Virus record (IMG/VR): IMGVR_UViG_3300013131_000279 | Span: 1-21,695 of that record | Strand: one strand, 5' to 3' | Source of the DNA: a virus | DNA: 21,695 nucleotides | Part shown: in pieces, positions 1,578-21,695 of the stretch | How positions within the stretch are numbered: position 1 is the first letter of the stretch | Layout: every line of letters starts with the position of its first letter | Notes under the pieces: model-generated | The model's input: the letters and a program-made list of their open reading frames with translations, nothing else | Told to the model about the DNA's origin: nothing | Databases searched by the model: none | Position numbers and translations under genes: made by a program

Positions 1578-3542
1578 TTATCTACTCACACAATCTACAA
1601 CACGAAGAACCTTTTCTGGTGGGATGTTAACTTTAATTTCACTTCTTCTGGTGTACTTCATAACAGGTCTGATGATTGCACCAACACCAGTTGCACTATT
1701 TATTGCTAGGTTAGGAAGCGTTGTGCATCCAAGTTCAGATGAAATAATATCTGCACCAACAACTCTTCCTTCATCATCTAGGACTGGTTTGAGAACACCA
1801 CATTCAGTTTCGATCATATCATCAGGTGAATATCCAATGCCAGTATTAACGATCTGAACACCATCAAGTTCACCAACAACATCTTCGCCCTGACTATCTG
1901 GTGTGACTTCTGATGTTGGAATATATCCACCGCCAGGTTCAAGCATCACGATATTAGTAACTTGTCCATTTTGAACGATTGCTCGTCCAGTAGCACCATA
2001 TCCATTATCACAATCATCAACGAACTGTATATATGGTGATCCAGCATAACCAAACCCAACATCAGTCATATTGACACCAACAACTTGTCCAAGACTGTTT
2101 ACAACTGCTCTAGCTGCTGCACCAGCACCACCACCGCCAAAGATAAGAACATTTGGTGGACCACATGTAATATTGTATGGATCACAACCACCTACGACAC
2201 TATCAACAACTTCATCATCTGCAGAGTTAGTATCTTTAGGGAACCAACTACCAATTGTGTCTTTACTATTTTTTTTCAAATTACTGATATACTTAGAAAG
2301 ATTAATTGTTCTCTTAAAGTCTGCAGTTTCTTGTGGTACTGGACCAAAGTTAACTGCCCAGTTGTATGGTTGTGGTTCACATATATCACCTTCACACTTG
2401 AGGAAGTTTAGACCAACTTGAACGTAGTTAATTGCTTGATCAATATATCCAATGAATGATCCAATCGGTCCTAAAATCTGCTCAATAGCACTCATAGCAG
2501 GACCGATTGCTTCTTGAACTAGTTCTCCAACTTCTGAGATCAATCCTGCAACAAATTGCTCAGCAGCACATAGTGGAATATTGATGATCTTACCAATCAT
2601 CTGCATCAAGAAATCACCAATAAATTTCTTAAGACCTTTGATAATATTTTCAATCACGCAATAGATCGTATCCATTGCTTTCTTGACGGCAATATCTTTT
2701 AAGAAACTTTCTGGGAAGATAAAGTTTAAAAGTTTCTTTACAGCTTCAAAGATTTTTCTAAACAGATACTTTCTTGCTTGCCTCATCAATTCTGAAAATG
2801 CTCCAGAAATCAAATCTGCAGTTTGATTGATTAATGCTGGGATATCAGCAATTTCATTCAAAACAGGATCAAGGTATCCATCCTTGAATGCCTTCAAATC
2901 ATTAACAACTTCAATAAATGTTGCTAATGAACGTGCGACTTCCCACATGAAGCCTTTGCCGTCTTTACATTTTTTGGCACGTCCTACAACCTTTTTCTTT
3001 GCGTCATTATTTGCCTTTCCCTGAACACTTTCCTTTCCATCTGCAGTCTTACCTTGTCCAGGAACTCCATTCCCTGTCGGAGATCCTCCAGTAGCAGGTT
3101 TTACTGCGACTGAATATTTTAGTTGTCTATTGAAATCAATTGGTTTGAAACCGCTAGTTCCTTTATCAACTGCAGTTTGCCAGGCAACAAGATTTTTTTC
3201 TGCTTCGCCACTAAACAATGCACCCAAGATAATGGGTTGCTGCATATCATCACCATCTAGGAAAAATCCTAAGACAGTTTCACCACCTTGCAATGAAAAA
3301 CTAGTACCACCAAAATTTTTACCTGCTCCCAGTGATGGTGGTACTAGGAAATGTGCCCAAGGTAATTCACTATCAGGAACTTCATTTGAAGCTGGATGAC
3401 GACCTAAGATCCTGACTTTTGCTCGATATCCATACTTAGTGCTAAATTCTCGCCAATTTGAATCAGCAGTTACCTGTCCGATGAACCAATGAAATCCATC
3501 TTCTCCAATAAAGTTGATCTTAGATAGGCGTTGCTCCAGCAT
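1578..3542 (-). CDS. 5: gp5-like baseplate hub protein (OB-fold, no lysozyme domain)
   Basis: A 654-aa protein. Residues 1-115 look like the gp5/VgrG OB-fold: FHWFIGQVT, YGYRAKVRILGRHP, LPWAHFLVPPS, then GGETVLGFFLDGDDMQQPII. Residues 150-195 are a Gly/Lys linker. Residues about 200-380 are a long amphipathic to hydrophobic helical region (around FIFPESF, FLMQMIGKIINI, AIGPAMSAIEQIL). Residues about 465-625 hold several beta repeats of the form GxGAxxRAVV...GQVxxVxM...GxGY...PxI. No muramidase motif is present, unlike T4 gp5, whose central domain is a lysozyme. It starts at an ATG whose A is shared with the TAA of the preceding 70-aa gene. It should sit below the gp27-like hub and carry the separate needle. 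The gp5 assignment rests mainly on the N-terminal domain and gene order. Confidence 0.75.
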   Translation of the reverse strand: MLEQRLSKINFIGEDGFHWFIGQVTADSNWREFSTKYGYRAKVRILGRHPASNEVPDSELPWAHFLVPPSLGAGKNFGGTSFSLQGGETVLGFFLDGDDMQQPIILGALFSGEAEKNLVAWQTAVDKGTSGFKPIDFNRQLKYSVAVKPATGGSPTGNGVPGQGKTADGKESVQGKANNDAKKKVVGRAKKCKDGKGFMWEVARSLATFIEVVNDLKAFKDGYLDPVLNEIADIPALINQTADLISGAFSELMRQARKYLFRKIFEAVKKLLNFIFPESFLKDIAVKKAMDTIYCVIENIIKGLKKFIGDFLMQMIGKIINIPLCAAEQFVAGLISEVGELVQEAIGPAMSAIEQILGPIGSFIGYIDQAINYVQVGLNFLKCEGDICEPQPYNWAVNFGPVPQETADFKRTINLSKYISNLKKNSKDTIGSWFPKDTNSADDEVVDSVVGGCDPYNITCGPPNVLIFGGGGAGAAARAVVNSLGQVVGVNMTDVGFGYAGSPYIQFVDDCDNGYGATGRAIVQNGQVTNIVMLEPGGGYIPTSEVTPDSQGEDVVGELDGVQIVNTGIGYSPDDMIETECGVLKPVLDDEGRVVGADIISSELGCTTLPNLAINSATGVGAIIRPVMKYTRRSEIKVNIPPEKVLRVVDCVSR

Positions 3543-3754
3543 TAGTTTTCGTAAATTCTACACTCAAGTGCATTAGGATGTTGATCACAATAAATTTCAA
3601 ATGGGGTGGGATCGTGACTATCATCAGGATGATTTGCCTGATAGATTTTCAAGTCTTCTAGTTCGTGTTCTAGAAAACGGCGACGTTGTGAAGAAATACC
3701 AGGGTCATAAAGATCTGTGGTATCCTTTTCGATGTGGTCTTCGATGGTTCTCAT
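3542..3754 (-). CDS. Small conserved hypothetical protein in hub operon
   Basis: A 70-aa acidic, His-rich protein. Its middle is predicted helical (SSQRRRFLEHELEDLKIYQ), and the C-terminal part is HPDDSHDPTPFEIYCDQHP with two cysteines. The ATG overlaps the TGA of the gp27-like gene (ATGA), and its TAA shares one base with the ATG of the gp5-like gene (TAATG). It is therefore locked translationally between the two hub genes, which suggests a chaperone or small hub component. I do not recognise a family, and no function is claimed. Confidence 0.6.
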   Translation of the reverse strand: MRTIEDHIEKDTTDLYDPGISSQRRRFLEHELEDLKIYQANHPDDSHDPTPFEIYCDQHPNALECRIYEN

Positions 3755-5013
3755 GTTAGTTGTGCGTAGGAATCTCTTACTAAAGTCAATCCAGTAAAAT
3801 CGCCCCTTGAAGAAAATTTATGTGCTAACGACTTGATCATATAGTATCCCGAACTAGGATCGGAACCAAAATCAGATTCTTGCTTATTTATCTTAGAAAA
3901 GTTGCAGAATATTACTTCCCCAACTCTTAAATTAAAGTTCATTGGCACCGTTATTGACAATGTTTGAGAGAACAGTGATGCGTATCTTGCAATTCCTTGT
4001 GATTGGAATAGTGGTTGATATTGTGGTGTATCTAAGTCACCTTTTGAAGATAGCGTTCCTGTGTCGATTACTCCCATAATAATTCTTGATGGATAAGTAT
4101 CAATCTTACTAGGAATGTTCTCAACTTCGTTTGATAACGTTAGTTGGTTGTTTATACTTTGACCAAAGTAGTAATCTTGAAATTCTGGCGATCTTGTAAT
4201 GATATTATAGAACCAATTAGAAGATCTATACATTCCTAGTCTTAGTTTTTCTAGGATATCATGACTTTCTTTCCAAACTGGAGGCGAAACCAATTTATAA
4301 TTATTATCTGGACTTAATGCATCAACAGTTTCGTGGTAACTGTATTTTAAAATTTTATCTTTATTCTTCTTTGCCTCATTAAAAATATTATCAACGCTTC
4401 TGAAATAATATCCATCTAACGTTTCATAGAAAAAATACCCAGCTGTTCCAGAATTCTTCCCATTATTAACTAAAGGAATAGATTTCGGACATAACCAAGT
4501 GCAAGTGAATAAAGGTTTTTTATAGTTTCCCATGAAACTATAAGTATTTGAAGTCTCTTCTAGTCTTCTTATTCTTGATGATTTAATCTTAAGATCTTTC
4601 TCTAAGATCTTTCTAATCGTTGTATCGAGTTTACCTGTATATTTTCGATACAATCGAGTTGTATGATTGCTGAATGATCCTTGTGTTTCTAAAATTAGAG
4701 TATAAACTTCTCGTTTTGCTGTTGCAGTTCCTGTCTTGATATTACTGATAACTAACGGATTATTTTGATCAAATCGTATTTCCCCTGAAGGATGTGTGAT
4801 TGTAAGATATACAAGAGCACCACTTCTTACAGGAAGTTTTGCTAACTTGCCACTAGTGTCTAAAATATCAATTTCAAAGTGAATTGAACTATCTGTGACA
4901 TCTTCATAATAACTGATGAGACCAGACTGTAAACGAACATCCTCAAACCTATCTCCTCTTGGAGAAGCAATTAGAAGTTCTGTTACTTTATGTCCTTTTA
5001 AGAAATTGGACAT
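3751..5013 (-). CDS. 27: gp27-like baseplate hub protein
   Basis: A 420-aa protein with no signal peptide or membrane segment. The N-terminal region is beta-rich (VRLQSGLISYYEDVTDSSIH, then VYLTITHPSGEIRF, then REVYTLILETQG), resembling the barrel domain of gp27/VgrG-type hub proteins. The sequence then continues through a mixed middle region and a C-terminal beta stretch (LRVGEVIFCNF, then GYYMIKSLAHKFS, then TGLTLVRDSY) typical of domains around the hub channel. T4 gp27 is about 390 aa, a similar size. In T4, gp27 trimers sit on gp5, and here the gp5-like gene follows after one small ORF. The start shares a base with the stop of the preceding gene (TAATG). The assignment is by gene order, size and fold-like pattern, not strong sequence identity. 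Confidence 0.6.
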   Translation of the reverse strand: MSNFLKGHKVTELLIASPRGDRFEDVRLQSGLISYYEDVTDSSIHFEIDILDTSGKLAKLPVRSGALVYLTITHPSGEIRFDQNNPLVISNIKTGTATAKREVYTLILETQGSFSNHTTRLYRKYTGKLDTTIRKILEKDLKIKSSRIRRLEETSNTYSFMGNYKKPLFTCTWLCPKSIPLVNNGKNSGTAGYFFYETLDGYYFRSVDNIFNEAKKNKDKILKYSYHETVDALSPDNNYKLVSPPVWKESHDILEKLRLGMYRSSNWFYNIITRSPEFQDYYFGQSINNQLTLSNEVENIPSKIDTYPSRIIMGVIDTGTLSSKGDLDTPQYQPLFQSQGIARYASLFSQTLSITVPMNFNLRVGEVIFCNFSKINKQESDFGSDPSSGYYMIKSLAHKFSSRGDFTGLTLVRDSYAQLT

Positions 5014-6551
5014 TATGCGGTTATCTGTGACATCATCTGAGCATATTTAGCAGCAGCCTGGTATGGCGACGCTCCACCGCCACCAATGATTTGTGTTCCA
5101 CCACCTACAGGAACAGGAACGATTGTGGTATTTGGTTCTGCTAATGCAATAATATTTCCTCCACCCAGACTACTTTGAGGACCACCAGGATTACCTTCTT
5201 CAGGTGATAATGTTTCTCGTCTTTTCCTTAGTTCTCTGTCTTGCTTCTTTATTCCTTTTAATTCTTGCCTTTGGAAAAATTGTTCTGGGGTTTCTTTATC
5301 TACTTTAGATGCAGGTCTTCTGATAATAACTTGTCCTTCTGGAGTATCAATAACTTCTTCAACCATCTCTCTTGGTTTTATCTTAGGATCTCTAGGAGCT
5401 GTTGGAGTGCGTGTAGGAGCAGGTGTTTCCCCAAAGATCGATTCTATGATCCTTTCAGTTGTTGTTCTTGGTGATGGTGCAGGTGTTGTAGGAAGTTCTT
5501 CTTTAGGAGCAACACGAATTTTATTAGGATCTACTCTTGGAGGTTGTGGTGCTGTTGGTGCTGTTGGTGGTTTTGGTATAAGATCTGCAACAGCACCAAT
5601 TCTTTGAATTAATGGACCACCTTTGCCTCTTGTTAAGAATAAGACACCACCAACAATGGCAACACCAGCAACAAATCCAGCAACACCACCTTGAGTTCTA
5701 CCTTCTCCAACACCTTTATTATATCCCATTTCAAATGCTTTTAGAAGTTGATCTTTCCTTCTTTGTATAGGCATCATTTCTGGTGGTGGTTCTTTTCCAG
5801 CACATGCACAAATACCACCAGAAAAAGATGCTAACTTATCTAAAGCAGCATCAAATGTATCCAATGTACCAGAGAACGGTGTCTTGGTGATTAGTAAACT
5901 AGTTTTCTTTTCTTCTTCTTGTACTCTTCTTTCTACTTCTGCTTCTCCCGCATCAACACCAGTTGCTCTGTCAGCAATATTCCCTGCTGTCATTGCACCG
6001 ATGCCACCACCTACAAGAGATCCTATTCCACCACCAATAAGTGTTCCTACGCCAGGAGCAACCAATGTACCTAATCCTGCACCAATCTTTGCTCCTAAAG
6101 CAGCACCAGCGATACCACCAGCAATACCAGAACCTGCACCAATACCTGCTTGCAAGTTAGATTGCCCTGCAGATCGTCTCTGCATGAAATCAATACCACC
6201 AAGTAATACATTAACTCCTGCAACACCACGTCCTATTCTAGGTCCACCTAACCTAGGTTTAGGCGCTACACCTACTGGTGCTTTAGCACCTTTCAGACCT
6301 CTTGCTAATCCTGCTAATCCAAGTGAACCAAGAACTTTATCTAAAACCCCACCTTTCTTTTCTTGTTCTTCTTGAGATTGTCTGATCGCAGTGTAAGTTT
6401 TCCTTCTAGTTTCTAAAAGTTGTGTCTTTGCACGTAAACGTTGGGTTTCAATTTCATTTGATGTTGAAACAGATCTAGCAAATAATTTTGCAAGATCAAC
6501 ACTACCTTTTGTATTGGATGCAGCTGCTGATAATACTCTTTCTAAGTTCAT
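5013..6551 (-). CDS. Glycine-zipper and proline-rich tail protein, tape-measure/hub candidate
   Basis: A 512-aa protein. Residues 1-65 are helical and charged, compatible with a coiled coil. Residues about 135-192 are a long glycine-zipper-like hydrophobic segment (AGIGAGSGIAGGIAGA, then GTLIGGGIGSLVGGGIGAM). Residues about 288-307 form a second hydrophobic segment (GGVAGFVAGVAIVGGVLFL). Residues about 325-395 are a Pro/Thr-rich linker, followed by a charged helical region and a Gly-rich tail. In T4 this part of the tail cluster holds gp28/gp29, and gp29 is the tape measure, so this or its 532-aa neighbour could fill that role. The hydrophobic segments could also insert in the host membrane during DNA entry. 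The ATG overlaps the TGA of the 532-aa gene (ATGA). No homologue is recognised from sequence alone. Confidence 0.5.
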   Translation of the reverse strand: MNLERVLSAAASNTKGSVDLAKLFARSVSTSNEIETQRLRAKTQLLETRRKTYTAIRQSQEEQEKKGGVLDKVLGSLGLAGLARGLKGAKAPVGVAPKPRLGGPRIGRGVAGVNVLLGGIDFMQRRSAGQSNLQAGIGAGSGIAGGIAGAALGAKIGAGLGTLVAPGVGTLIGGGIGSLVGGGIGAMTAGNIADRATGVDAGEAEVERRVQEEEKKTSLLITKTPFSGTLDTFDAALDKLASFSGGICACAGKEPPPEMMPIQRRKDQLLKAFEMGYNKGVGEGRTQGGVAGFVAGVAIVGGVLFLTRGKGGPLIQRIGAVADLIPKPPTAPTAPQPPRVDPNKIRVAPKEELPTTPAPSPRTTTERIIESIFGETPAPTRTPTAPRDPKIKPREMVEEVIDTPEGQVIIRRPASKVDKETPEQFFQRQELKGIKKQDRELRKRRETLSPEEGNPGGPQSSLGGGNIIALAEPNTTIVPVPVGGGTQIIGGGGASPYQAAAKYAQMMSQITA

Positions 6552-8146
6552 GCTCCATATACCCCTAGAATTAGGTTAGAAGTAAATCTATCAACACTTT
6601 CAAAAGTAGTATTGAATGCAACTTCACTTGATGCTGGAGCAGATTTAGGTCCTTGTGGTTTAGCAACTGACTGTTTGCCAGGAATTGTAATTAATGATAT
6701 GTCTGAACTTCCACTCATACCAGTTGAACTTTGCTCACCATATCTACCATACATTCCACTATCTTGAGCAGATCTTTTTGGTTTTGGACTTGTCTGTGCT
6801 CCTTGTGCTTCTCTAAGATTTTGATTGTAAATTTCTAAACTTTGTTGTAATGTTCTCTTTGTTTGTCCATAACGAGGACCAAAACCAGCCCATTCTTCAT
6901 TCAAAATGCGAAGATCCTGCAATGTCACTGGTTTTGATACATCTACTTTTCTTTTCTTTTTTGCAAGGTACAATATCATTTTATTCTGCAATTCTGGAGT
7001 AAATTTCTCTTTGCTAGGATCTAATCCCATTGCACTAACAACATTCTCTGGTTCCATGAATTGCCCAGCACCAACTGCTGCTGATGTTCCACCACGATAT
7101 CTTCCTCTACCTTCCCTTAGGAATTTTTTCTGTAGTTCTGCAACTTGATTTGCTGTTAGTTTGGATAAATCTCCACCATACTGAGATCCCCCAAAAAATG
7201 TATTATATCCTTGTGGTCCAGCAGTGCCTTCAACTTCTCTAACTGATGCAATGAATGCTTTTTCTTCTGGAGTATCAGCAATAACGTCAGCGGCATTTAC
7301 ATTACCTTCTCTACCTCCACCACTACCAGGATAATTCGGTGGTCTTTCCTTCATCAAATCTTCAACTGCAACCTTTGGTTGCTCTGCTGCCTTTCCAGTT
7401 CCACCCCTTTGAGAAAGGATAGCATCAAAACGAGTTACAGTTGCTTGAAATCTTTCAGTATCTTCTGGACTAATACCTGGAGATCCAGTCTGTCTTCTTA
7501 CAAGTTCTTGTCTTCTTACATCAGCAGCACCCATTGTTAAAGGCACTGCAGCAGCAAGTCCTAGCATTCCGACACCACGCATACCAGGCATCGCCATACG
7601 TGGACCACGGGCGATTGTAGCACCTGCTGCAGCACGTCCTGCACCACCTAGTGCCATTCTTGTTAGAACCAGTCCAGAAGCGATATTAACGATCTCTGGG
7701 AGCATTGCAGTAACTGCAAACCCAGCATTGGCAGCAGCATCACCAAATCGACCTTCTAGTAATGCCTTGCCAGCAAGAACTGCAGATAATCCAGCAAACT
7801 TAGATCTGAAATCAAAAAAGGATCCACGTAAACTGGTTAGATTTTCTTCTTCTTTCTTGTTTAACTTCTTTTCTTCATCAAAATATCTTTTCTTATCACG
7901 AATATCTTGTCTAATCTGTGCTTGAATTGATGCTAGATTAGTATTGACTTGTTCAAATTCTAATACTAGTTTACCTAACGTTCTGATTGTCTTTGGAGAA
8001 AGAGATCCTTCTCTTTCTTCCGCTTCCATAAGCAACTTATCATAAGCCAATCCCATCCTACGACGTAGAGGAGTAATCGAAGATGCCTTCTTCTCTACGT
8101 TTACGATACCAGGTAGAATTTGGTTTTGTGGCTCAACTAATTGCAT
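6548..8146 (-). CDS. Tail-associated lysozyme with lambda-R-like (GH104) muramidase domain
   Basis: A 532-aa protein. Residues 1-110 are charged and helical, ending in a coiled-coil-like KKRYFDEEKKLNKKEEEN stretch. Residues about 115-205 are hydrophobic with Gly/Ala-rich segments. Residues about 293-445 resemble the phage lambda R endolysin (lytic transglycosylase) family: SVREVEGTAGPQGYNTFFGG, with putative catalytic Glu306 in the VEGT motif; SAAVGAGQFM at 355-364; and NEEWAGFGPRYGQ at 416-428. The C-terminal 80 residues are low-complexity plus a conserved-looking tail (ESVDRFTSNLILGVYG). It lies in the hub operon, not beside a holin, so it should be a virion enzyme that opens peptidoglycan during DNA injection, taking over the role of the gp5 lysozyme of T4. 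It overlaps the preceding 62-aa ORF by 14 bases. Confidence 0.7.
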   Translation of the reverse strand: MQLVEPQNQILPGIVNVEKKASSITPLRRRMGLAYDKLLMEAEEREGSLSPKTIRTLGKLVLEFEQVNTNLASIQAQIRQDIRDKKRYFDEEKKLNKKEEENLTSLRGSFFDFRSKFAGLSAVLAGKALLEGRFGDAAANAGFAVTAMLPEIVNIASGLVLTRMALGGAGRAAAGATIARGPRMAMPGMRGVGMLGLAAAVPLTMGAADVRRQELVRRQTGSPGISPEDTERFQATVTRFDAILSQRGGTGKAAEQPKVAVEDLMKERPPNYPGSGGGREGNVNAADVIADTPEEKAFIASVREVEGTAGPQGYNTFFGGSQYGGDLSKLTANQVAELQKKFLREGRGRYRGGTSAAVGAGQFMEPENVVSAMGLDPSKEKFTPELQNKMILYLAKKKRKVDVSKPVTLQDLRILNEEWAGFGPRYGQTKRTLQQSLEIYNQNLREAQGAQTSPKPKRSAQDSGMYGRYGEQSSTGMSGSSDISLITIPGKQSVAKPQGPKSAPASSEVAFNTTFESVDRFTSNLILGVYGA

Positions 8147-8321
8147 TTGCTGTTTGTGCTGCCTCTAACTTTTTCTTCTCCAAATAATTCTCAAGATATT
8201 TAATATAAGTTTCCTTTTCCCAAGGGATCAAATCGTCAAGTTCAGTTAAACTCCATCTATGATAATGCATCAATGCAAAGTTGTCTTCATAATATGAAGT
8301 CATATCTGTATGATATAGCAT
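8133..8321 (-). CDS. Small tail-assembly protein, possibly the frameshift extension of gp26
   Basis: A 62-aa ORF whose ATG shares its A with the TAA of gp26 (TAATG), placing it in the -1 frame relative to gp26. Residues about 15-52 (FALMHYHRWSLTELDDLIPW, then ETYIKYLENYLEKKK) fit the short T-type segments of tail-assembly chaperones, which precede the tape-measure gene. T4 places gene 51 near this position, but this ORF is far shorter than T4 gp51, so I give no symbol. An alternative internal start is Met7. It may be translated by reinitiation at TAATG, as a -1 frameshift fusion to gp26, or both. Confidence 0.6.
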   Translation of the reverse strand: MLYHTDMTSYYEDNFALMHYHRWSLTELDDLIPWEKETYIKYLENYLEKKKLEAAQTANAIS

Positions 8322-9052
8322 TATGCGAAAAAATTTGTCAAACCCTCAATCAGAACATCAGTGTCAATATTAGTATTAGGATTGGTTACCTTTGTTGAAT
8401 ATGATAACTTTGGCATCGTTTCAAAGAACTTCTCAATCATTTGGAATTGAGAACTGTCCAGTCCTTCAAGGAATTCAATCCATTCCTTTTCGGTATAATC
8501 AGAATGTGACCATGCTTCGTCTTCATTATATAACTGTTCAATACATGAGATCACAGACTTGAATGCTCTATCAATCTTATCTTTATTTGTTCCAGACTTA
8601 GTAACAGAGAAATTATTTTCAACGAACTGCTGCATGGAAGGATATTTCATCTTCATGCTCAATCCACCACCAAGATCAATAATATCAGTATGTCCTTCAG
8701 GAACAACAAGTTTTACTTCATTGATTTTTACTAATAATGGAACTTGAGTTTCTCCATCGTCAGTGCAGGTAACTAGAAGTTCTACACTTTCACCAACAGA
8801 CTTACTGCGAATATTCAAGAAAAGATATTCAAGTTCAAAACTAGGAAGATCATCAACTTTGATGCCCTTAGTCAGAACACAGGACTTTAGAACATCTTTT
8901 ACAGCGTTCAAAATATCCTTTTCATTACCACTCTCAAGTGCAATCAGAAGAACTTTCTCTTCCTTTACAAGAAATGGACGATATTTGATTGTTTTACCAG
9001 TCGAAATAAGATCTAGTTCAAATGTAGGAGTAACAACCTTAGGTAATGGCAT
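8321..9052 (-). CDS. 26: gp26-like baseplate hub assembly protein / tail chaperone
   Basis: A 243-aa protein of the T4 gp26-type baseplate family (T4 gp26 is about 208 aa). Recognisable stretches are the N-terminal PLPKVVTPTFELDLISTGK, KYRPFLVKEEKVLL, a helical region around NAVKDVLKSC, FELEYLFLNIRSKSVGE, and the beta strand stretch GETQVPLLVKINEVKL. The C-terminal half is acidic and helical (EEWIEFLEGLDSSQFQMIEKF). It is needed for hub assembly in T4. A late-promoter motif ends 21 bases upstream of the ATG. The 3' end carries A AAT TTT TTC immediately before the last codons, and the next ORF is in the -1 frame, suggesting a longer alternative product. No strong Shine-Dalgarno is seen. Confidence 0.8.
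   Translation of the reverse strand: MPLPKVVTPTFELDLISTGKTIKYRPFLVKEEKVLLIALESGNEKDILNAVKDVLKSCVLTKGIKVDDLPSFELEYLFLNIRSKSVGESVELLVTCTDDGETQVPLLVKINEVKLVVPEGHTDIIDLGGGLSMKMKYPSMQQFVENNFSVTKSGTNKDKIDRAFKSVISCIEQLYNEDEAWSHSDYTEKEWIEFLEGLDSSQFQMIEKFFETMPKLSYSTKVTNPNTNIDTDVLIEGLTNFFA
8327..8336 (-). promoter_or_regulatory. Candidate programmed -1 frameshift site at the end of gp26
   Basis: Read on the minus strand in the gp26 frame, the sequence is ACA AAT TTT TTC GCA TAA. It contains two overlapping heptamers of the X XXY YYZ form: A AAT TTT (8336-8330) and T TTT TTC (8333-8327). After a -1 slip the frame reads TTT CGC ATA ATG and enters the 62-aa ORF with no stop, giving a fusion of about 306 aa instead of 243. 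No convincing stable downstream stem was found; only a weak AT-rich 6-bp palindrome at 8292-8305 is present. Frameshifting itself is inferred. Confidence 0.5.
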
Positions 9053-9073: not shown

Positions 9074-9081
9074 TATTTAGA
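9074..9081 (-). promoter_or_regulatory. Late promoter motif TCTAAATA upstream of gp26
   Basis: Minus-strand TCTAAATA, close to the T4-like late -10 consensus NATAAATA, contains the TAA stop of the gp54-like gene. It ends 21 bases before the gp26 ATG, a spacing shared with the other late motifs in this window. It would start a sub-operon of the hub genes. Confidence 0.55.
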
Positions 9082-9901
9082 ATGGATTTCTGGTGTTCTT
9101 CCCAGAATCTGATCTTAAAATTGTATCAGTGTCATAACTTCTAGAAGTCCTATCAGTATAATAATAATCATACTTAAATGTGACTGCAGTTTTGATTAGT
9201 TCTGCATCTCCATATGCTAGTGGAGCAGCAACAATATTAATTGGAAAGGCATCCATTAAATGATATGTAATAGCACTGGACATTCTAGCAGAAGTTCTAG
9301 CACTATCAGAAGATTGCAATCTAGATTGCTCTGGAAGAACATCTCCACTAAATGCAGTGATTTGTATATCACACTTATAACTAAGTGGATATTTTAATTT
9401 TCTATATGATGCTCTATCTTTTTTTCTTTCATCTGTATTTCTACCATGTCCACCTGTTGATAAAACTGTTGGTGAAATATATTCCATCCAAGCATTGAAT
9501 ACTTCATTAGTATAATAATCTTTTTGAGAATAGTATGTCAATGTAACTTCAGGGTATCTTCTATACACAGCATAACTTGAGGACACACCTTGTCTTAATC
9601 CATCAACTTGTGAAGTTTGAATTTGTGATCCTGGAAGAACTGCTTCTGAGCAGAATAATGCTAGATAATTTCCTGGATTTTCTAATGTTCTAGCATCATA
9701 AAACCCATGCTGATTGATAAATCCAATTAAACTATTACCACCCTGCGATACAGCACTATTAAAATCTATCCATACATCATATAAGTTATTAAAAGCAGGT
9801 ACAATACCAGATCCAGTTTTACTTACACTAGATCTATAAAGTTCAGATGTTGGTAGATAAATTCTATTTTTTGTAGTCTCTAAATTGCTCTCTCTACTCA
9901 T
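9077..9901 (-). CDS. 54: gp54-like baseplate tail-tube initiator (tube-fold protein)
   Basis: A 274-aa protein. After a Ser/Thr-rich N terminus, residues about 35-230 look like the tail-tube fold shared by gp19, gp48 and gp54: LYDVWIDF, NYLALFCSEAVLPGSQIQTS, YPEVTLTYYSQKDYYTNEVF, WMEYI, YKCDIQITAFSG, DAFPINIVAAPLAYGDAELI, then VTFKYDYYYT. It should sit on the hub and nucleate tail-tube polymerisation. In T4, gene 54 is next to gene 48; here the gp48-like gene is about 900 bases away on the opposite strand. The alternative is the tail tube protein itself, but the hub context favours gp54. The ATG is at the edge of a 28-base divergent intergenic region shared with gp4. Confidence 0.65.
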   Translation of the reverse strand: MSRESNLETTKNRIYLPTSELYRSSVSKTGSGIVPAFNNLYDVWIDFNSAVSQGGNSLIGFINQHGFYDARTLENPGNYLALFCSEAVLPGSQIQTSQVDGLRQGVSSSYAVYRRYPEVTLTYYSQKDYYTNEVFNAWMEYISPTVLSTGGHGRNTDERKKDRASYRKLKYPLSYKCDIQITAFSGDVLPEQSRLQSSDSARTSARMSSAITYHLMDAFPINIVAAPLAYGDAELIKTAVTFKYDYYYTDRTSRSYDTDTILRSDSGKNTRNPF

Positions 9902-14989: not shown

Positions 14990-15584
14990 TCGTCTTCTCC
15001 GATAATCGCTCCCGCAAATATTCTTTATACTTACGGGTATCAATATTTAGAAACGGTGCATACTTCTTTAATTTTAAACTGATTGCTTCCCAGATTGGGT
15101 CAGTCAATTTCTTATCAAGATTATTGCCGAACAGGAAAATTTTATCGTAAATTGTAAGAGTTTCGATACTAATATTCCCGCTCAGGAAATTCTTGAGCAC
15201 TGGTGGATGTTGTCTTGAAGCATCAAATAACTGCTCTAGGTTGTATTCAGACAACAAATCTTCTGTGTGTTGCTTGAACTGATAGAATAAACTCTGCTGC
15301 CTTCCTTGCCAGGAAGAATAAACAGTCTCACCTGATCGAATAATCTCACCAATCCATAGTGCATCTGGATTGTCACACGCTACAAAGTTAGCAACAAAGA
15401 ATGCTTTGATCTCATCATCATTATACTTCCTTGACATCTTTTCAAAGAAGTATCTGTCCTTTCTTTTATAAAAGGAATTCAAACTTGCTCTAGATTTGCC
15501 AGCATATCTAAAGTAATCATAATTTTTCCTTGTGAAATGCTGTTTAAATGCAAGATACTGTTTATAAGTATCAAACGGGTTCAT
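14982..15584 (-). CDS. 59: gp59 loader of the gp41 replicative helicase
   Basis: A 200-aa protein starting at the ATG at 15584 (MNPFDTYKQYLAFKQHFTRK). T4 gp59 is 217 aa, helical, and loads helicase gp41 onto gp32-coated forked DNA. Matching stretches are YKQYLAFKQHF, YDYFRYAGKSRASLNSFYKR, DRYFFEKMSRKYNDDEIKAF, FVANFVACDNPDALWIGEI, then LKNFLSGNISIETLTIYDKI and WEAISLKLKKYAPFLNID. The upstream TTG start was rejected because it adds only eight residues and lacks a ribosome-binding site. It overlaps the upstream radical SAM gene by 14 bases, although in T4 gene 59 directly follows gene 33. It should cooperate with gp32, encoded downstream. Confidence 0.88.
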   Translation of the reverse strand: MNPFDTYKQYLAFKQHFTRKNYDYFRYAGKSRASLNSFYKRKDRYFFEKMSRKYNDDEIKAFFVANFVACDNPDALWIGEIIRSGETVYSSWQGRQQSLFYQFKQHTEDLLSEYNLEQLFDASRQHPPVLKNFLSGNISIETLTIYDKIFLFGNNLDKKLTDPIWEAISLKLKKYAPFLNIDTRKYKEYLRERLSEKTNG

Positions 15585-16602
15585 AATTTTTAGGGTTGAA
15601 CATTTCAACTGTCTTCTTCTGTCCTTTTAATTGTATTTTAGCAGCATATTCAACTTTTGGTCTGCTTGGACACATGTTACAGATCCAACCAGGTTCTACA
15701 ACTTCTTTGAATGAACTTCTAAGTGCTTCTTCAGTGTCATTGATGCTGGTTGGTTTATATCCAAGATATTTCTGCCATTCTGGATCTTCTAATTGATCTG
15801 TAGCTGCTAAAGATTCTCTTAGATATGCTACCATAGGACACTTCCACAAATGTCCATTATATAATTGAGAATTTGCACAGGTGCAATGGGTGAAACTAGC
15901 AGATGGATCTCCATCCTCATGTGGATAATATTTTACTGATCCATCTTCATTAAATTTATATTTTACAAGATCAAACCAAGTTCTAGGCTTATTGTCCTCC
16001 GTAAGATATGCTTCACTCAATTCAAACATGTTGTCAATATCAACTCCACGTTCAATTAGATATTTGGTAAACTCATATCCATTTTCCCAATCTTTCTTAC
16101 CCACTTGAGTATATGGTGGACGATGAAAGGTAAGTCTAAAGACAACACCCTTCAACATTTCATCAGCAATCCATTCCTTTTCTTGAAGAAGTCTAGATCC
16201 ATTGCTGAATAGTTTTACATTACATGGTTGTGATCCACGCTCACCATAACAAAGTTCTCTAACAATCCTAGTTACTTCTTTTGTTCTTGGTTCCAATAAT
16301 GGTTCGCCACCAATGATACTAACATGGCTCCAAACCCAAATCTTTGGGAGAATATTTTCTATATCCTCTATTAACTGATCAATATCTACAGAACTTTTTC
16401 CCGAAAGCAAACTGCTATTATGATTACATCCTCTACATGAAAGATTGCAACCATTCATAGTATGAATACTAAGAAGCCTTGTAGTAGGTCTTTCTTTTTC
16501 TAACTCTACAATTTGATCTGTGGTAATTTGTTTAAAATTATCGATCCAAAATCCTTTTAAACTTCTAATGTATTCGACTTTTTCTTTCAGTTCTTTGTCC
16601 AT
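15571..16602 (-). CDS. Radical SAM enzyme with C-terminal auxiliary cysteine region (copy 2)
   Basis: A 343-aa protein. The radical SAM signature is CNLSCRGC (Cys52, Cys56, Cys59), followed by SIIGGEPLLEP at 95-105 and a barrel strand VKLFSNG. The C-terminal part has Cys240, Cys242 and Cys255 (HCTCANSQLYNGHLWKCP), then Cys308 and Cys311 (WICNMCPSRPK), consistent with a second iron-sulphur cluster as in SPASM/Twitch proteins. It is clearly paralogous to the 268-aa copy at 18545, which shares NSQL/NTQL-xNGxLWKCP and ICNMC. Its ATG shares a base with the gp33 stop (TGATG), and its end overlaps gp59, so it is inserted without a gap between two T4 core genes. Substrate is unknown. Confidence 0.8.
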   Translation of the reverse strand: MDKELKEKVEYIRSLKGFWIDNFKQITTDQIVELEKERPTTRLLSIHTMNGCNLSCRGCNHNSSLLSGKSSVDIDQLIEDIENILPKIWVWSHVSIIGGEPLLEPRTKEVTRIVRELCYGERGSQPCNVKLFSNGSRLLQEKEWIADEMLKGVVFRLTFHRPPYTQVGKKDWENGYEFTKYLIERGVDIDNMFELSEAYLTEDNKPRTWFDLVKYKFNEDGSVKYYPHEDGDPSASFTHCTCANSQLYNGHLWKCPMVAYLRESLAATDQLEDPEWQKYLGYKPTSINDTEEALRSSFKEVVEPGWICNMCPSRPKVEYAAKIQLKGQKKTVEMFNPKNYEPV

Positions 16603-18541: not shown

Positions 18542-18549
18542 TATTTATT
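18542..18549 (-). promoter_or_regulatory. Late promoter AATAAATA for the 83-aa-PhoH-exo-gp33 operon
   Basis: Minus-strand AATAAATA is a full match to NATAAATA. It overlaps the TAA stop of the radical SAM gene and ends 19 bases before the ATG at 18522. It separates the carbamoyltransferase module from the core operon. Confidence 0.65.
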
Positions 18550-19351
18550 GGGTGGTGATAATTTTTTTATGGTTGTTGATTTGTAATGCTGCGCTAAACT
18601 TCAATGGTCTAGCAGTACACATGTTACATATTTGTTCAGGTTTACTAGAGTTATCACAGAATTTTACCAGATCTTCATCACTACAGTCAACTGGTAGTCC
18701 ATCTCCAATAAAAGGTTTCCAACAATCATCATCTAATTGTTCAGTAACATAAAGAAGTTCCTTCAGAAATGCTGCATTAGGACACTTCCAAAGTCTACCA
18801 TTAAACAACTGAGTATTAGAGCAAGAACACATCTCAAAACTTTGTTCTATATTGTTATGAGCATAAGGATATACCTTACCGTTAGTCTGTTTAATAGAAT
18901 TAAACCAACGGTCTTTGCCATCATGATGTTCTGTAACAAGAACCTTAGAACTTTTTACCTTGTTGATGTTCTCAATAACTTCTGGTGTATGAATACTAAC
19001 ACGTAAGGACATGCCAGGATACTTTTCCAGATCTTCCTCAATCCATTGTCTGTTCTCTTCATTGAGAAGAATACCATTGGTGTACAGATAGACTGTCTCA
19101 GTGTGCTCTAGACAAGCGTGTAGGATGTCTCTGCAGCGTGGATTGAGCAATGGTTCTCCACCAATCACTGAGACACGTTCTGCGTCTATCCTGGGTAGTA
19201 TTGTATGGATATCTTGAATGAGTTTATCAGTATCTAATTTACTACCAGGAGCAAAGTAATTACTGAAATGATTACATCCTTTGCAACTTAGATTACATCC
19301 AATTGTTGCACTAACATCAAGAATTTTTAATTTTGGGATTGTGGTAAGCAA
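18545..19351 (-). CDS. Radical SAM enzyme with auxiliary cysteine region (copy 1)
   Basis: A 268-aa protein. The signature is CNLSCKGC (Cys19, Cys23, Cys26), followed by VIGGEPLLNP (62-71) and VYLYTNG. Auxiliary cysteines are Cys175 and Cys177 (MCSCSNTQLFNGRLWKCP, with Cys190), then Cys242 and Cys245 (QICNMCTARPL), matching copy 2 at 15571. It is about 75 residues shorter, lacking the N-terminal extension and part of the middle. No ATG lies before the first motif; the start is TTG at 19351, supported by AGGAG (19361-19365) nine bases upstream. This start lies inside the carbamoyltransferase tail, giving a 35-base overlap. The tight coupling implies it works with the carbamoyltransferases on the same substrate or product. 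Confidence 0.8.
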   Translation of the reverse strand: MLTTIPKLKILDVSATIGCNLSCKGCNHFSNYFAPGSKLDTDKLIQDIHTILPRIDAERVSVIGGEPLLNPRCRDILHACLEHTETVYLYTNGILLNEENRQWIEEDLEKYPGMSLRVSIHTPEVIENINKVKSSKVLVTEHHDGKDRWFNSIKQTNGKVYPYAHNNIEQSFEMCSCSNTQLFNGRLWKCPNAAFLKELLYVTEQLDDDCWKPFIGDGLPVDCSDEDLVKFCDNSSKPEQICNMCTARPLKFSAALQINNHKKIITTQ

Positions 19352-20168
19352 GGTAAGCAGCTCCTATGGAAGTTCCACCATCATGTGCGATTGGTTCAGC
19401 ATATATTTTTACATCTTCTGGCAACTGTTTACACAGTTTATAATTCACAACACAGTTCAAGAAACATCCACCAGACAATACAAGATTCTTACATTTAGTT
19501 TTCTTTAAAGCAAGTTGAGCAAGTTCTAATGCACGTTCTTCCCAAAGAGTTTGAACTGTGTAGGCAGCATCTTCCTTTGGTTTTAGTGTGAGATCACTTA
19601 GGTCTACTATATTAGATCCATATGATGACAGTCCCATGACTTTACCAGCATCTTCATAATCAAATCCACAAAATCTAGATACATCTTCAAATTTTTTCCC
19701 TATGCCATGGTTCTCAGACTGCCAATATTGTTTATGAATAGTTTTCCATTGAAACCTATTACTATTTTTTGCGTGAAAGATAGTTTCAATTTCTAAGTTG
19801 TCCGCAACTTTAGATCCATTACTATCTACGATAATACATGCTGCCTCATCAAATCCAGAACTATAGAATGCTCCTGCAGCATGTGCTAAATGATGAGACT
19901 TTCTATAATCAATATGTTTAGCAGTAGGAAATGAACGTTTGATCCGTGCAGTATCTCTAGCACTGATCATATTTTTTTCTGGTGTAGTCCAATGCGAATC
20001 AACTGTTGCAATCACATCTACAGCAGTTACATAATTTACCAAGTCTTTGACTGTATAGTCATACTTTTTTCTAGTAACTCGTTCTGCTTCCAAATAAAAA
20101 TCTATCTGTCCATCTTTCAACAGACAAATAGATCCATTATTAGAAACATTTATTCCTAAGATATTCAT
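19317..20168 (-). CDS. Stand-alone Kae1-like carbamoyltransferase domain (N-terminal half only)
   Basis: A 283-aa protein with the N-terminal domain of NodU/CmcH/TobZ O-carbamoyltransferases: MNILGINVSNNGSICLLKDG, LEAERVTRKK, HHLAHAAGAFYSSGFDEA with the metal-binding HHxxHA at 92-97, DAGKVMGLSSYG (about 173-184), LSGGCFLNCVVNY (231-243) and HDGGTSIGAA. It ends right after this, without the YrdC-like C-terminal domain (GRxEAGPRALGNRS) that makes carbamoyl-AMP. There is no sign of a frameshift: the stop is followed by the coupled radical SAM gene, and all motifs are intact. Its ATG overlaps the stop of the full-length paralogue by four bases. I infer that it uses carbamoyl-AMP from that paralogue, forms a heterodimer with it, or is regulatory. 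Confidence 0.78.
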   Translation of the reverse strand: MNILGINVSNNGSICLLKDGQIDFYLEAERVTRKKYDYTVKDLVNYVTAVDVIATVDSHWTTPEKNMISARDTARIKRSFPTAKHIDYRKSHHLAHAAGAFYSSGFDEAACIIVDSNGSKVADNLEIETIFHAKNSNRFQWKTIHKQYWQSENHGIGKKFEDVSRFCGFDYEDAGKVMGLSSYGSNIVDLSDLTLKPKEDAAYTVQTLWEERALELAQLALKKTKCKNLVLSGGCFLNCVVNYKLCKQLPEDVKIYAEPIAHDGGTSIGAAYLAYHNPKIKNS

Positions 20169-21695
20169 TTGACTACAAGTTTTTGTACTTCAGGAAAATA
20201 AAGATACTTAATATCACTATTATTAAAAGTCTTCAATGCATCTTCTGGTGTCTCTACAAGTGGTTCACCAGCAAGATTAAAGGATGTATTGAACAAAATT
20301 GGAACGTTAGTTTCTTTATTGAATGCAGCAATCAAATTGTAGTAATGTTCATTCTGTTCTTTTGTAACAGTTTGAATTCTACAAGTTTTATCAACATGAA
20401 GTATTGCTGGAATAAATGGTGCAGTATCAAAATATGCATCGACAGCATACATCATGAAAGGACTTTCATCCATCCCTGCCATATCAAACCACTCATGAAC
20501 ATATTCTTTTAAAATAGTTCCTGCAAAAGGACGGAATGCTTCACGCTTTTTGATTGTATTGACATGATCTTTTCCGTTAGGATCTCTTGGATCATAAAGA
20601 ATAGATCGATTACCAAGTGCTCTAGGACCAGCTTCAGATCTTCCCTGAAACATTGCAACAATATTTCTATTACTAATTAGACTAGCTACCTGTTCATAAG
20701 TAGTGTCTAATCCTTCAATGTGAGAAAGATCGTAAGTTGGTCCTAAGTATAATGTTTTCATAGGTGTTTTTTTATCCGAAACTAACATTGCAGATCCAAA
20801 TGCATGTCCACCATCATATGATAATGGATCAACGTATAAATTGATGTCTAATGATTTTAACACATTATAGTTAGAAACACAATTCAAAAAGAAACCACCA
20901 GAAACTACTACATTTTTTTTACCAGAAAGTTCAATTGCTTTTTTGATCATGTAAATCGTATGTTTTTCAGCAGACTTCTGAAGATTATATGCTACGTTTT
21001 CATTTACAGTTTCTTCTCCATAGTATTTTGTCCATCCTTCATTGTCTCTAGGATAGATGTCTTTACTACAAAGACTATGCCCATACTCTTCATTGAAAAG
21101 ATTGACTTGTCCAGAACCATAAGCAGAAAGTCCCATAGTTTTACCTGCTTCAAGTTCACCAAATCCACAAAGCGAAGATATGCACCTAAACGCTTGTCCA
21201 ATACTTACTCTATCACTGAATAAATTATTACCATCCCAAAAAGGATGTCCAATTTTTTCACATAAAGAACGATTATAGAAGCAAGAATAGTGCTTGAATA
21301 AAGGAATAAATTCACCATTCACATAGTTGTAAATACTTTCTGTTTCACAAAATGAAGTCCCATTTTTACGAACAACAGATCCTTTACCATCCATTACTAG
21401 ACAGACAGCATCATCAAATCCAGACCCATAAAATGCAGATGCTGCATGACAATCATGATGACGATCAGAAAAATCTAAAACTTCTTTTACTCCCCTATCA
21501 TGTAAAAGCTGTTTAAGGTTTTTTTTATAAGATTGCTTTTCAAAATTATACTTTATTGTATACTTTGTAAAACAATCAGAGTAAACTGCAACATCAATAC
21601 TATCATCAACGAATTTTTCACATAGTGCGTAAGCACCAACATCACGTTTCTTTCTAGTAACTCTTTCTTCTTCAAGATAAAATTTTAGTTTCCCA
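20165..21695 (-). CDS. Full-length NodU/TobZ-type O-carbamoyltransferase, 5' end outside window
   Basis: The frame is open to the right edge; 509 residues are visible and the start lies outside. The first visible residues (KLKFYLEEERVTRKKRDVG) already match the family, so only a short N-terminal part is missing. Kae1-like domain: HHDCHAASAFYGSGFDDAV (visible residues 79-97), AGKTMGLSAYGSG, VVSGGFFLNCVSNY and YDGGHAFGSA. YrdC-like C-terminal domain: GRSEAGPRALGNRSIL (351-366), EAFRPFAGTIL, VPILFNTSFNLAGEPLVETP. The family uses ATP and carbamoyl phosphate to make carbamoyl-AMP and transfers the carbamoyl to a hydroxyl of a sugar, antibiotic or nucleotide. It is first in the visible accessory operon; the substrate is unknown. 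A start at the internal Met (21394) would cut off HHxxHA and is rejected. Confidence 0.88.
   Translation of the reverse strand, partial: GKLKFYLEEERVTRKKRDVGAYALCEKFVDDSIDVAVYSDCFTKYTIKYNFEKQSYKKNLKQLLHDRGVKEVLDFSDRHHDCHAASAFYGSGFDDAVCLVMDGKGSVVRKNGTSFCETESIYNYVNGEFIPLFKHYSCFYNRSLCEKIGHPFWDGNNLFSDRVSIGQAFRCISSLCGFGELEAGKTMGLSAYGSGQVNLFNEEYGHSLCSKDIYPRDNEGWTKYYGEETVNENVAYNLQKSAEKHTIYMIKKAIELSGKKNVVVSGGFFLNCVSNYNVLKSLDINLYVDPLSYDGGHAFGSAMLVSDKKTPMKTLYLGPTYDLSHIEGLDTTYEQVASLISNRNIVAMFQGRSEAGPRALGNRSILYDPRDPNGKDHVNTIKKREAFRPFAGTILKEYVHEWFDMAGMDESPFMMYAVDAYFDTAPFIPAILHVDKTCRIQTVTKEQNEHYYNLIAAFNKETNVPILFNTSFNLAGEPLVETPEDALKTFNNSDIKYLYFPEVQKLVVK

Follow-up and report, generated by a model that had tools for sequence, protein, structure and literature searches.

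The gene for the gp26-type baseplate protein of a T4-like cyanophage and the 62-aa open reading frame that follows it very likely (probability about 0.93) form one gene with two products, a short tail assembly chaperone (TAC-N) and, through a -1 ribosomal frameshift on the slippery heptamer U UUU UUC, a long chaperone of about 306 aa (TAC-NC). The window, by which we mean the whole 21,695-base virus record analysed here, has the gene content of a T4-like cyanophage, and its DNA matches among phage records are mostly to Synechococcus phages; unlike the T4-like phages in the work cited below, it is an uncultured cyanophage contig.

All genes of this block lie on the minus strand. The gp26 gene (9052..8321, 243 aa) belongs with the T4 baseplate protein (PF12322, E 1e-65; phrog_150, E 4e-72), has the putative slip site near its 3' end and closes with the codons ACA AAT TTT TTC GCA TAA. 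Its stop codon (8321..8323), used when no shift takes place, overlaps an ATG in the sequence TAATG, within which the 62-aa ORF (8321..8133) starts in the -1 frame relative to gp26. Traced upstream, that frame runs through the heptamers without a stop, so that the shifted product would read ...NFFRIM..., and it encodes the T-like domain (TAC-C; 8133..8329 with the conserved stretch from FFR onward) that matches phrog_634 (E 4e-20) and is annotated elsewhere as gp51. Both AAATTTT (8336..8330) and TTTTTTC (8333..8327) stand in X XXY YYZ phase. An earlier note on this DNA had given the coordinates, codons and frames of the junction correctly and had named these two overlapping heptamers as slippery; T TTT TTC bears this out as a conserved -1 site, whereas A AAT TTT proved to be specific to one lineage.

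The conservation of the site was followed in the window and 80 relatives from viral_contigs with 50-91% protein identity. In these related sequences, which do not amount to 81 independent events, gp26 has TTT TTC as its last two Phe codons in 81/81, with a T ending the preceding codon likewise in 81/81, and T TTT TTC is therefore invariant. Outside the site these genes use TTT for Phe 654 times and TTC 229 times, other FF pairs are written TTT TTC in only 4 of 79 cases, and 74 in-frame XXXYYYZ motifs were counted over 19,441 codons. The codons around the slip site vary, the divergence of the relatives is large and nearby synonymous positions are unconserved. The conservation of U UUU UUC is more than chance, and the slippery heptamer is under selection at synonymous sites. 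AAATTTT was rejected as the operative site, being present in the window and L001-L009 and absent from L010-L080. A heptamer lost while the overlap is kept, which the earlier note had regarded as speaking against frameshifting, is not the pattern found: U UUU UUC stays invariant and it is the gp51 start codon that has been lost in several lineages instead. Further afield, T TTT TTC is kept in phages of the KVP40/VH7D and Aeh1/phiAS5 types, in Astolliot, Stenotrophomonas BUCT608, Cronobacter S13, Vibrio F86 and S-B68, while phiM12 and C48C1 carry T TTT TTT and RL38J1 carries T TTT TTG; the site or its variants extend to Sinorhizobium and Pseudomonas phages.

Upstream of the heptamer, at a distance of 9 nt, lies a Shine-Dalgarno (SD)-like GAGGG (8343..8347) that by its pairing and spacing is presumed to be a stimulator. 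AGGG or GAGG precedes the heptamer in 67/70 non-redundant loci, and the predicted anti-SD pairing averages -7.6 kcal/mol at this element against -0.95 elsewhere in gp26. The spacer from [GA]AGGG to the heptamer measures 9 nt in 55/70 loci and 8 nt in 9/70 (64/70 together), and the element stands about 21 nt from the gp51 ATG of the window; judged from the sequence, this spacing is unlike that of a gp51 initiation site. The arrangement resembles that of E. coli dnaX, in which an SD-like element about 10 nt upstream of the slippery heptamer is combined with a hairpin downstream, although dnaX is a cellular gene and its heptamer is A AAA AAG in place of the U UUU UUC of gp26.

Downstream of the heptamer, the folding of 45 nt compared with synonymous-codon shuffles gave a mean z of -2.0, with p<=0.05 in 54% of loci, as against a z of -0.19 and 11% of loci for the next stretch, which served as control. 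RNAalifold found no common structure in all 70 loci taken together because the registers of the hairpins differ, and a split into two types gave structures. The type I hairpin (11 bp, 25 loci) shows changes on both sides in 12 cells compared with 2.1 in shuffles and the type II hairpin (5 bp, 13 loci) shows 7 compared with 1.6, where the choice of members by pairing biases the percentage paired, and the paired changes less so. The window's own downstream RNA fits neither type; a branched fold 3' of the heptamer (8267..8326, MFE -14.7 kcal/mol) is possible there but weakly supported, with a z of -2.15 against dinucleotide shuffles and a p of 0.058 against synonymous shuffles. In many relatives the covarying downstream hairpin is probably part of the frameshift signal, while in the window the hairpin is not clear.

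In 80/80 relatives, a few of them cut by a contig end, the -1 frame continues without a stop from FFR onward and carries the conserved gp51 domain. A start codon is found near the end of gp26 in 62/70 non-redundant loci, and in 60/70 an ATG follows the shift site within the first codons. The latter count would suit a variant of the preferred explanation, in which the frameshift fusion is accompanied by some free gp51 from reinitiation wherever the ATG is kept; we regard this addition as unlikely, given that this ATG has no conserved ribosome-binding spacing and that its retention may partly reflect the protein sequence. No ATG, GTG or TTG precedes the conserved gp51 residues in 8/70 loci, in which gp51 would therefore be made only by frameshifting. 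Such start-less genes occur in the cultured phages ACG-2014e, ACG-2014j, P-RSM1 and Cronobacter S13, the records of which carry no annotation for the gp51 stretch, as well as in C48C1, and AG-345-P14 has only an internal TTG ahead of the domain; in the start-less isolates the start-codon route cannot yield the whole conserved domain.

This bears directly on the idea of gp51 as an independent gene of the usual kind, with ribosomes terminating and reinitiating at TAATG and the T-run being incidental. The TAATG overlap with its ATG kept in the window and the start codons near the gp26 end in most loci are what such a gene would lead one to expect, yet it would explain neither the invariance of the TTT TTC codons nor the loci and isolates that lack any start codon, and the SD-like element, too far from the ATG for initiation, keeps a fixed distance of 8-9 nt from the heptamer. 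We consider a separate gene very improbable. Transcriptional slippage on the T-run as the source of the fusion can draw on the six-T run that stands before the shift in all loci, but slippage runs are usually longer than six bases and the phase, the SD-like spacing and the RNA hairpins fit ribosomal slippage, which leaves it with hardly any credibility.

The preferred reading of gp51 as the frameshifted extension of gp26 also applies to older annotations. According to Sullivan et al. (2010), Aeh1 lacks gp51 and the gp51 of cyanophages has about 20% of the normal length. In the genome that we presume to be that of Aeh1 (L124), the gp51 domain lies at about 2262-2445, in the -1 frame after gp26 and with no start codon before the conserved residues. 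As far as the sequences tell, the gp51 that seemed missing in Aeh1 or short in cyanophages is the -1 frame extension of gp26.

T4 itself has two distinct genes for gp26 and gp51. Its gp26 gene closes with GAG TTC TTT GAG TTA CTA TAA, has no slippery heptamer at this end and is followed on its strand by gene 25. A profile of the fused gp26 and gp51 domains aligns colinearly with T4 gp51; in a profile-profile comparison of nine T4-like gp51 sequences with the gp26 profile, the alignment spans 184 columns (P 1.3e-13) and stops at the slip-site FF, and phrog_150 covers residues 3-248 of T4 gp51 (E 2.6e-84). An HMM built from the N part of the gp26 alignment alone matched T4 gp51 weakly (11.7 bits, with 3/5000 shuffles higher). 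In AlphaFold2 models, the gp26 of the window (pLDDT 84) and a T4-like gp51 (pLDDT 88) have a near-identical order of strands and helices, the latter with three extra C-terminal helices. By these comparisons T4 gp51 appears to be a natural fusion of gp26 and gp51, and T4 gp26 and gp51 would therefore correspond to G and GT, the short and long forms being supplied by two genes in T4 and by frameshifting in cyanophages. A fold search of the PDB with the gp26 model gave as its top match the HK97 tail assembly chaperone (2ob9) at a non-significant E of 0.7, which is therefore a hint only. The PDB sequence search with gp26 and the fold search with the T4-like gp51 model returned no match, and the NCBIfam search gave nothing useful.

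The surroundings of the junction point in the same direction. Upstream of gp26 (8321..9052) lies a tail tube-like protein (9077..9901; phrog_45 tail tube, E 8.5e-25; PF23849, E 2.5e-13), and the gp51 domain is followed by a 532-aa protein (6548..8146) that overlaps its end by 14 nt and by a 512-aa tape-measure-like protein (5013..6551; phrog_794, E 4e-7; phrog_167 tape measure, E 2e-5). The placement of the two chaperone genes just upstream of large tape-measure-type proteins, as previously noted, holds by profile for the 512-aa protein, while the 532-aa protein, which has a local match to phrog_90, is a candidate tape-measure component by its position. The order of tail tube-like, gp26, gp51, 532-aa and tape-measure-like genes resembles V-G-T-H in lambda, whose slippery heptamer is G GGA AAG as opposed to the U UUU UUC found here and whose N domain is smaller than the 243 aa of gp26. 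This gene order and the colinearity of T4 gp51 with the fused domains support the earlier proposal that gp26 and the small ORF are the T4-like counterparts of G and GT, an idea already published for T4-like phages. In some cyanophages (L126, 1422-1702; L127, 1393-1708) annotation makes the product of the gene that follows gp51 a lytic transglycosylase or a late control gene D protein, in place of a tape-measure-like protein.

A model of expression can be drawn up on this basis. The majority of ribosomes would stop at the gp26 TAA and release the short chaperone, which resembles lambda gpG, whereas a minority would be slowed by pairing of the SD-like GAGGG with 16S rRNA and probably also by downstream RNA structure, slip by -1 on U UUU UUC and complete the fusion of about 306 aa with the gp51 domain, which resembles gpGT. 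By analogy with lambda, for which the action of the G/GT chaperones has been described (PMC5009743), the short form would coat the tape-measure protein and the C-terminal domain of the fusion would recruit tail tube subunits, and neither form would be expected in the virion. We infer expression and the efficiency of the shift from the sequence, and chaperone action and the ratio of the products from lambda.

In Ackermannviridae the end of gp26 differs. The Kuttervirus-type gene ends [AG] ATT TTC AT[TC] TAA and that of Serratia 3M ends GTT TTC ATC TGA; ATTTTC is invariant in this family (L104-L121, L133) apart from the GTTTTC of Serratia 3M and is a possible non-canonical -1 slip site. The domain in the -1 frame gives a weak match to phrog_634 (E 0.003) and lacks a start codon in most members. 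One tRNA slipping from UUC to UUU would be consistent with this. It is conceivable, at slightly less than even odds in our estimation, that the signal consists of three parts, an SD-like element at fixed spacing, the invariant U UUU UUC and a hairpin that has repeatedly been replaced by other architectures, and that Ackermannviridae have switched to non-canonical slippage of a single tRNA at [AG]TTTTC.

A 2022 abstract by Vladimirov, Gautam and Davidson (in Virology 566:9-15) reportedly describes frameshifting as conserved in several T4-like groups and T4 as using genes 26 and 51; this identity of the T4 genes agrees with the profile-profile and phrog_150 results obtained here. Before that, a 2016 review still had T4 as the exception among long-tailed phages (PMC5009743). 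With reference to Vladimirov et al. (2022), a passage of the PRFect paper attributes to some T4-like phages a short tail assembly chaperone gene as well as a fused, long one (PMC10885494), and a passage of the phage Adele paper states that poly-T slippery sequences are known in T4-like TAC-N genes (PMC12846349). Going by these passages, the chaperones are of the same T4-like kind as those treated here, and because of such prior reports the gp26/gp51 frameshift is not new in kind; the present measurements concern the SD-like element, the covarying hairpins and the lineages with a start-less gp51. Literature searches found no other paper on a gp26/gp51 frameshift in cyanophages, and the anatomy of the stimulators together with the many genomes with an unannotated C-terminal domain may be new. 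The chaperones of Vandenendeviridae and Andersonviridae likewise have a conserved -1 extension of TAC-N upstream of the tape measure and a T-rich slip site (PMC12846349), but these are other families with another motif, GTTTTT, to which the non-canonical [AG]TTTTC of the Ackermannviridae relatives is related.

In many cyanophage and other T4-like records the gp51 domain is unannotated or named as a stand-alone 'baseplate hub assembly catalyst'. Reading it as part of a long-form tail assembly chaperone would correct the annotated function and would explain why cyanophage gp51 looks truncated by about 200 aa and why that of Aeh1 seemed missing, and it would give marine phages a clean and testable frameshift signal.

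Other genes of the window, all on the minus strand, deserve mention in their own right. A CP12-like protein of 70 aa (3542-3754; PF02672, E 4e-13) is encoded within the tail and baseplate block and not in a metabolic cluster. Two adjacent ORFs (19317-20168 and 20165-21394) are each similar to phrog_1601, a Nol-like carbamoyltransferase family, with overlapping matches at profile positions 1-324 and 125-526, which suggests tandem paralogues, and two radical SAM domain proteins (15571-16602 and 18545-19351) flank a PhoH-like gene.
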